From: a bacterium
Lineage (GTDB): Bacteria; Patescibacteriota; Minisyncoccia; Phycocordibacterales; Phycocordibacteraceae
Direction: 5' to 3'
NCBI GenBank assembly: GCA_021784815.1
Contig: JAJYHK010000016.1
Coordinates: 1 to 51,984 of the forward strand
DNA: 51,984 nt
The position numbers and the translations under genes are program-made. Numbering within the stretch: position 1 is the stretch's first letter; each line of letters opens with the position of its first letter. Under the pieces are notes generated by a model, which saw nothing but the letters and a program-made list of their open reading frames with translations, was not told where the DNA came from and searched no databases. Below, one piece after another: positions 7,390 through 39,543 of this stretch.

Positions 7390-7547
7390 CAGTCAGCAGC
7401 CTTATTTTAGACCGTGGGAGTTCGTTTTGGTTCGGTTCCGCGCGTCTACCAGGGGTGGGCGACCGTGGCGGGTTCGATTCCTGGAAAGAGCACAGCAGTC
7501 AGCAGCCCTATTTGAGACCGCCCGGCCTCGAATTTGGTGCGGTACCG
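7384..7547 (+). repeat. Diverged tandem repeat pair, 106-base period
   Basis: Copy 1 (7384-7440) and copy 2 (7490-7547) share an exact 18-base core, GCACAGCAGTCAGCAGCC, then TATTT, AGACCG and a diverged TCG-TTTGGT-CGGT-CCG tail. The first copy overlaps the 19-bp direct repeat. The unit is not coding in any convincing frame. Confidence 0.6.
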
Positions 7548-38964: not shown

Positions 38965-39543
38965 TTATCGCGCCTTTTCGACGCGTTCGGTGTACGTGCT
39001 GTCCTCGGTGTTGATCCGGATAATGTCGCCGGCATTAATGAAGAGAGGGACGTTCACGGTGGCACCGGTCGCGACTTTCACCGGCTTGTTGCCGCCGGTC
39101 GCGCTGTCGCCTTTCACGTTCGGAGGCGCTTCGATCACCTCTAAGTCGACCTTCACGGGGATGTTGATCGTGATCGGCGTAGCTTCGAAGGTCGTCACTT
39201 CCGTGGTGGCATTCGGCGCGAGCCACTGCACTTTGTCATGCACGGTCTCCTCGGGGAAGGAGAAGCGGTTCTTCGGATCCGCTTCCTCGCAGAACCAGCT
39301 TTCGCCGCGGTTGGTGTAGAGGTACTTCGCGCTCATCTTGCCAACATCGGCCTCGTTCGCGGTCTCATTTTGGTGGAAAGAGGTCTCGATGACCTTGCCG
39401 GAAATAAGGTTGCGCAGCTTGGTCTGGTTCACGGGCTTACGCATCTGCATGCGGAATACGTGGGACGAGAGTACCTCATAGGGCTCGCCGTTATAAATGA
39501 TCACGGTTTTAGGGACGATTTCGTTATACGAGAGGACGGCCAT
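38965..39543 (-). CDS. efp: Elongation factor P with altered tip loop
   Basis: The 192-residue protein has the three EF-P beta-barrel domains: IVPKTVIIYNGEPYEVLSSH, the middle domain VDLEVIEAPPNVKGDSATGG, and the C-terminal TGATVNVPLFINAGDIIRIN. EF-P rescues ribosomes at polyproline. Aligned without gaps to the E. coli sequence, the tip loop K31-P-G-K34-G is replaced by R31-M-Q-M34-R-K-P: the lysine that is usually modified is Met. None of epmA, epmB, earP or ymfI is seen in this window. It is divergent from the sigma-factor gene. Confidence 0.95.
   Translation of the reverse strand: MAVLSYNEIVPKTVIIYNGEPYEVLSSHVFRMQMRKPVNQTKLRNLISGKVIETSFHQNETANEADVGKMSAKYLYTNRGESWFCEEADPKNRFSFPEETVHDKVQWLAPNATTEVTTFEATPITINIPVKVDLEVIEAPPNVKGDSATGGNKPVKVATGATVNVPLFINAGDIIRINTEDSTYTERVEKAR

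Follow-up and report, generated by a model that had tools for sequence, protein, structure and literature searches.

Patescibacteria elongation factor P with a variable tip residue in a conserved basic loop: a candidate for activity without tip modification

The elongation factor P (EF-P) of a small Patescibacteria genome carries methionine at the tip position where the Escherichia coli protein carries its modified lysine. Among its relatives this residue, number 34, is the variable one, and the strongest conservation flanks it on both sides (R31, R35-K36-P37 and N39-Q40-T41). In the textbook view of EF-P, a single modified side chain positions peptidyl-prolyl-tRNA; the E. coli protein, which is of the EpmA type, has the tip loop KPGKGQA with a beta-lysylated Lys34. 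We know of no EF-P modification of either glutamine or methionine. The likeliest reading of the observations described here is that this EF-P works without modification, and we assign a probability of roughly 0.6 to the fuller proposal that it is a functional EF-P with an unmodified residue 34, a basic, proline-stiffened loop and an altered tRNA-Pro partner. As a protein it is ordinary, with an unusual tip that is found lineage-wide.

The gene lies in a stretch of 51,984 nucleotides, here called the window, from a Patescibacteria genome of 771 kb (19 contigs, 99.87% complete; Table 1). Its product matches the Pfam families PF08207 (EFP_N, 39.3 bits, cut-off 23) and PF09285 (Elong-fact-P_C, 82.4 bits, cut-off 25). 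At an E-value of 0.001 Pfam gave no match to its central OB family, and this part of the protein was recognised by its fold: the best PDB matches of the structural model in Foldseek were EF-P structures, with TM scores up to 0.86 over 185 columns. The broader subfamily model NF001810 scored 161.8 bits, barely above its cut-off of 161, and TIGR00038 scored 163.3 bits, below its equivalog cut-off of 185.8, a threshold that is a score cut-off and not a functional feature. With a KOW-like N domain, a C-terminal domain and the full-length fold all present, membership in EF-P is secure, and the nearest named relatives of the protein come from Ca. Kaiserbacteria and other Patescibacteria. EFP_N matched once across the whole, nearly complete genome; there is therefore no second canonical EF-P copy, which the original prediction had named as evidence that would count against it. 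On one side of efp lie the gene of a divergent sigma-70-like factor, recA and ftsK, and on the other that of a large protein carrying a peptidoglycan-binding domain; none of them is a modification gene.

Table 1. Location of efp, its tip features and the tRNA-Pro genes of the same genome (window coordinates unless a locus is given).
Feature	Position	Strand	Basis or remark
efp, elongation factor P (192 aa; stop included)	38965..39543	minus	ORF with ATG start; Pfam; fold match
beta3-beta4 tip loop RMQMRKP, residues 31-37	39433..39453	minus	alignment; model strands 20-30 and 38-45
ATG codon of Met34, which corresponds structurally to E. coli Lys34	39442..39444	minus	Q/M/K in relatives
N39-Q40-T41, near-invariant, start of strand beta4	39421..39429	minus	family conservation 91/91, 90/91, 91/91
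tRNA-Pro genes	L347:1428-1729, L352:667-740 (G000 C5, C17)		7-nt D-loops

In a gap-free alignment with the E. coli protein, KPGKGQA becomes RMQMRKP and Lys34 becomes Met34, as had been read from the sequence for the region 39400-39470. Of 148 aligned relatives, 147 have a loop of exactly seven residues (the remaining sequence was not read through it), and an AlphaFold2 model built from 41 relatives (mean pLDDT 90, pTM 0.71) places the loop between two strands; the alignment register is therefore sound. In its length and its modelled strands it agrees with the beta3-beta4 loop by which EF-P reaches the peptidyl-transferase centre, and, as the original prediction suggested, it may enter this centre in unmodified form. 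Misassembly, frameshift or misalignment can practically be dismissed as a source of the unusual tip: the loop contains no indels, the model is confident, and the relatives already refute it, with an identical loop in 24 further EF-Ps of the same GTDB family and a near-identical one in nearly all others, which excludes chance or a read error. Moreover, the same loop type occurs in other species. Genomes of 85,462 species, one per species, were scanned with the pattern QR[KR]PV[MNI][QR][TA]K, which fixes Gln34 and leaves Met tips uncounted, and at least 299 confirmed EF-P loci were found. All 80 loci that were retained read R[MK]QQRKP, and every one that could be placed belonged to a Patescibacteria-type lineage. 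RMQMRKP-type loops are common to a wide Patescibacteria group, which supports the original prediction on this point.

Within the GTDB family, 92 EF-P sequences were compared, including that of the window; a few of them share a bin. Their loops read RMQQRKP (46), RMQMRKP (25), RMQKRKP (12), RKQQRKP (3) or one of a few other forms. The set also included one NPGKGAA copy (L246, G207:C12) from a same-genus bin, which has 30% identity and sits on a 9.7-kb contig; it was set aside as a likely contaminant. Some same-genus bins (G207, G216, G256 and G272) contain two EF-P copies, one of them NPGKGAA, and contamination of these bins is likely. Residue 34 is Q in 51 sequences, M in 27, K in 12 and A in one. 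Its neighbours are nearly fixed: R31 is found in 91/91, Q33 in 89/91, R35 in 86/91 (with M, G or N in a few members), K36 in 90/91 and P37 in 91/91. Met34, initially taken as the defining feature, is indeed present in the window but is not the conserved part of the loop, its position drifting between Q, M and K across the family. On a tree of the family from which the loop columns had been excluded, parsimony required at least 14 changes at residue 34, three of them forced by well supported branches, versus 0-3 changes at the remaining loop positions and a median of 6 per protein column. Apart from the single A, all residues accepted at position 34 are long and unbranched, and the position looks constrained in shape and not in charge. 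From this pattern we infer that a modification requiring Lys or Arg at 34 cannot be general in the family.

Variation at residue 34 might also be the mark of a decayed tip in a lineage where EF-P has become unimportant and stalling is relieved by ABCF ATPases or YebC2, or is tolerated, and EF-P went unmatched in 19 of 192 genomes sampled across the phylum. We consider such decay improbable, because the rest of the loop is better conserved than most of the protein, residue 34 is restricted to Q, M and K, efp is retained by 103 of the 106 genomes in the family, and PPP motifs show no depletion. In a crude count over 230 ORFs of at least 120 aa (~260 kb, about a third of the genome; ~71,000 aa), PP was observed 139 times against 159.5 expected from composition, and PPP nine times against 7.6. 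Polyproline is therefore not strongly avoided. Substrates of EF-P also remain, as ValS keeps the PPP motif in VLPPPNVTG. The ValS match (L327, G000:C15:43279-45444) reads through one TAG and stops at profile position 715 of 863.

Across the phylum sample, an EF-P match was obtained at E 0.001 in 173 genomes; the others may lack EF-P or hold very divergent forms. Among 148 aligned EF-Ps, including that of the window, the tip residue was R in 88, Q in 36, K in 18, M in 4 and G in 1, with one unread. All but one of the K tips sit in PGK-type loops (17, of the form N/K/S/FPGKG), the exception being RMQKRKP. Every Q/M-tip loop (40/40) has K or R at position 31 and K or R at position 36, and position 37 is usually P. 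Among R-tip loops, K31 occurs in 67/87, R31 in 0/87 and K36 in 9/87, and most read G36-A37. The nine columns that best separate the classes are residues 29-37. The suggestion that Q/M-type loops might form one clade did not survive the EF-P tree, on which the class is scattered with 9 gains or losses, at least four of them forced by well supported branches. In five usable independent pairs, R31, K/R36, P37 and R35 either moved with the tip or did not differ; so few pairs cannot reach significance, and the association between loop and tip is suggestive.

How would such a tip be modified, if at all? The absence of epmA, about which the original prediction had asked, was borne out for the window's genome, and epmB is absent too: no tRNA-synt_2 protein there exceeds the EpmA cut-offs, the matches being other synthetases, and NrdG2 is the sole radical SAM protein. 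It was examined together with six class II synthetases as possible EpmA or EpmB under another name, and all were rejected; besides NrdG2 they are two LysRS, two non-discriminating AspRS, a bacterial AspRS read in two frames and an AsnRS-like protein. Both lysine--tRNA ligase genes are full-length and above the lysS cut-offs (L153, G000:C16:2608-3624; L154, G000:C18:21945-22961). The two non-discriminating AspRS genes are of archaeal type and lie on contig C11 (L150, L151), and the split bacterial-type AspRS (L156, L152; G000:C18:50021-50949) reflects a frameshift or an assembly error.

The same search does detect the pathway in the phylum where it is present. EpmA-like proteins, defined as single-domain proteins above a threshold of 250 bits that we set ourselves (the curated cut-off was reached in 16 genomes), were found in 14/17 PGK-type, 0/88 R-tip and 0/41 Q/M-type genomes; two of the three exceptions among the PGK-type genomes are incomplete. 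The association of EpmA with tip class gives a Fisher p of 5e-17, a value that overstates the independent evidence, since almost all PGK-type EF-Ps belong to a single clade. EpmB-like proteins, taken as those above 100 bits with none above the curated cut-off, were found in 7/17 PGK-type, 1/88 R-tip and 1/41 Q/M-type genomes. In many PGK-type genomes epmA adjoins efp, sometimes together with an epmB-like gene (L041, L047, L062, L064, L067, L104, L135 and others), and it is likely that beta-lysylation operons exist in Patescibacteria. EarP gave no match in the window's genome or in any of the 192 phylum genomes, nor in the control genomes. YmfI is a member of a large reductase family, within which a simple profile search does not single it out.

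Modifying enzymes without recognisable homology may still exist, and such an enzyme could act elsewhere in the loop, the role of the modified tip having moved to R31, R35 or K36. That one of these residues takes the role was already raised in the original prediction and fits their near-invariance in the family while residue 34 drifts, and EF-P modifications in other bacteria are diverse in chemistry and enzymes (PMC6544042). We nevertheless think a modification at one of them unlikely. The genomes are very small, EpmA, EpmB and EarP were not found (the EarP controls being silent too), and R35, besides its replacement in a few family members, gives way to S in the loops RSSQSKG and RKSQSKA of relatives, so that the sole universal feature is a basic residue at both 31 and 36.

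An EF-P working without modification at the tip would differ from the types described so far. It resembles EpmA-type EF-P in fold, in the seven-residue beta3-beta4 loop and in the flanking strands, and differs from it in the absence of P32, G33, K34 and G35 and of EpmA and EpmB from the genome. Like the EarP type, with its rhamnosylated Arg, it has no P32; unlike it, it has no Arg34. The Lys or Arg at 34 of EpmA- and EarP-type proteins and the tip lysine of Bacillus-type modified EF-P are all replaced by Met. Among forms held to be unmodified, Pinheiro et al. (2020) reportedly proposed that actinobacterial EF-P, with a Lys tip in a stiffened PGKGP loop, needs no modification; freedom from modification is proposed here as well, for a loop whose sole proline is P37 and whose non-Lys tip is flanked by basic residues. 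In the available text of Sieber et al. 2024 (PMC11611912), unmodified EF-Ps take two forms, the stiffened loop and the lengthened loop of EfpL (YeiP), which has an unmodified Arg33 tip. The window protein shares with EfpL a tip proposed to be unmodified, and differs from it in its seven-residue loop, in having Met and not Arg, and in its TIGR02178 score (85 bits against a cut-off of 264). Judged by its sequence, the loop corresponds to neither described unmodified form and also lies outside the described modified types.

Q and M tips are themselves already known as rare states, at about 1.4% of EF-Ps. In the part of Volkwein et al. 2019 available to us (PMC6544042), the tips of 1166 EF-Ps are K in 81.1%, R in 14.8%, N in 2.2%, M in 0.77%, Q in 0.6% and A in 0.5%, and M and Q tips co-occur with P32 in 0%. 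Gln and Met tips are mentioned again in PMC11611912. The present proteins match these rare EF-Ps in tip residue and in the absent P32, and the accessible portions of the two papers give frequencies for them and no loop architecture, tRNA or function. No relevant paper on EF-P or tRNA-Pro of Patescibacteria was found in the open-access literature. The loop architecture, the drift at residue 34 and the tRNA association described next appear to be new.

The features of tRNA-Pro read by E. coli EF-P are a stable D-stem and a D-loop of 9 nt; once this loop is altered by a single nucleotide, the factor has essentially no effect (PMC4890201). In the window's genome, each of the three tRNA-Pro has a D-loop of 7 nt and a weak stem (GTAT/GTAC or GTGT/GCAC). 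A further tRNA-Pro called by ARAGORN at window positions 7401-7491 lies within a short direct repeat without an Rfam match and was discarded as probably false. A fixed tRNA-Pro(UGG) pattern, which misses tRNAs not starting with CGGG, matched in 30 of 80 genomes. The 7-nt D-loop was present in 15/15 Q/M-type versus 2/15 K- or R-tip genomes (Fisher 1.8e-6, uncorrected for descent), and the stem lacked two GC pairs at its top in 15/15 versus 3/15. The association includes only two independent pairs, and 7-nt D-loops also occur in tRNA-Gly, tRNA-Gln, tRNA-Trp and tRNA-Asn of the window's genome and, on a GC-rich stem, in the likely initiator tRNA (AGCGGGG...); descent from a single ancestor is therefore enough to explain the D-loop association.

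It is conceivable that the tip changed passively, as a consequence of a shift in the tRNA-Pro D-arm and ribosome of this lineage, a different docking geometry having left the reach of a modified Lys34 without use. The D-loop counts fit this, and an R-tip relative with the same weak 7-nt D-arm (G116) could be an intermediate. Given the phylogenetic confounding, the shortening of other tRNAs in the genome and the concentration of class-separating EF-P residues at the tip and not elsewhere, we rate it as quite unlikely. A more ambitious possibility, which we offer tentatively, is that in a large group of Patescibacteria EF-P and tRNA-Pro were rewired together: a modification-free tip, with basic shoulders and a residue 34 that is neutral and exchangeable, would have co-evolved with the short, weak D-arm. 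The pair would then follow a third unmodified route to the relief of polyproline stalling and would not be replaceable by E. coli components.

Returning to a functional, unmodified EF-P, here that of a Paceibacteria-type Patescibacterium, the factor would bind, like other EF-Ps, between the E and P sites of ribosomes stalled on proline codons. There the basic, proline-stiffened frame of R31 and R35-K36-P37 would hold the CCA end of peptidyl-prolyl-tRNA in place of one long modified side chain at 34, and any long, unbranched residue at that position (Gln, Met or Lys) would suffice as a spacer. With the D-arm of tRNA-Pro changed to a 7-nt loop and a weak stem, docking of the factor on the tRNA has probably shifted too. 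Counting against this explanation, E. coli EF-P carrying single K34A, K34M, K34N or K34Q swaps is inactive, as tested in the PGKG context (PMC6544042).

A group in which position 34 drifts beside frozen neighbours would show that the modified side chain is not essential everywhere. If this is true, organisms whose genomes are very small can lose the modification pathway. Because PGK-type members of the phylum keep epmA, R- and Q/M-tip members do not, and the D-arm varies with the type, Patescibacteria would offer a natural experiment on tip, loop and D-arm within one phylum.
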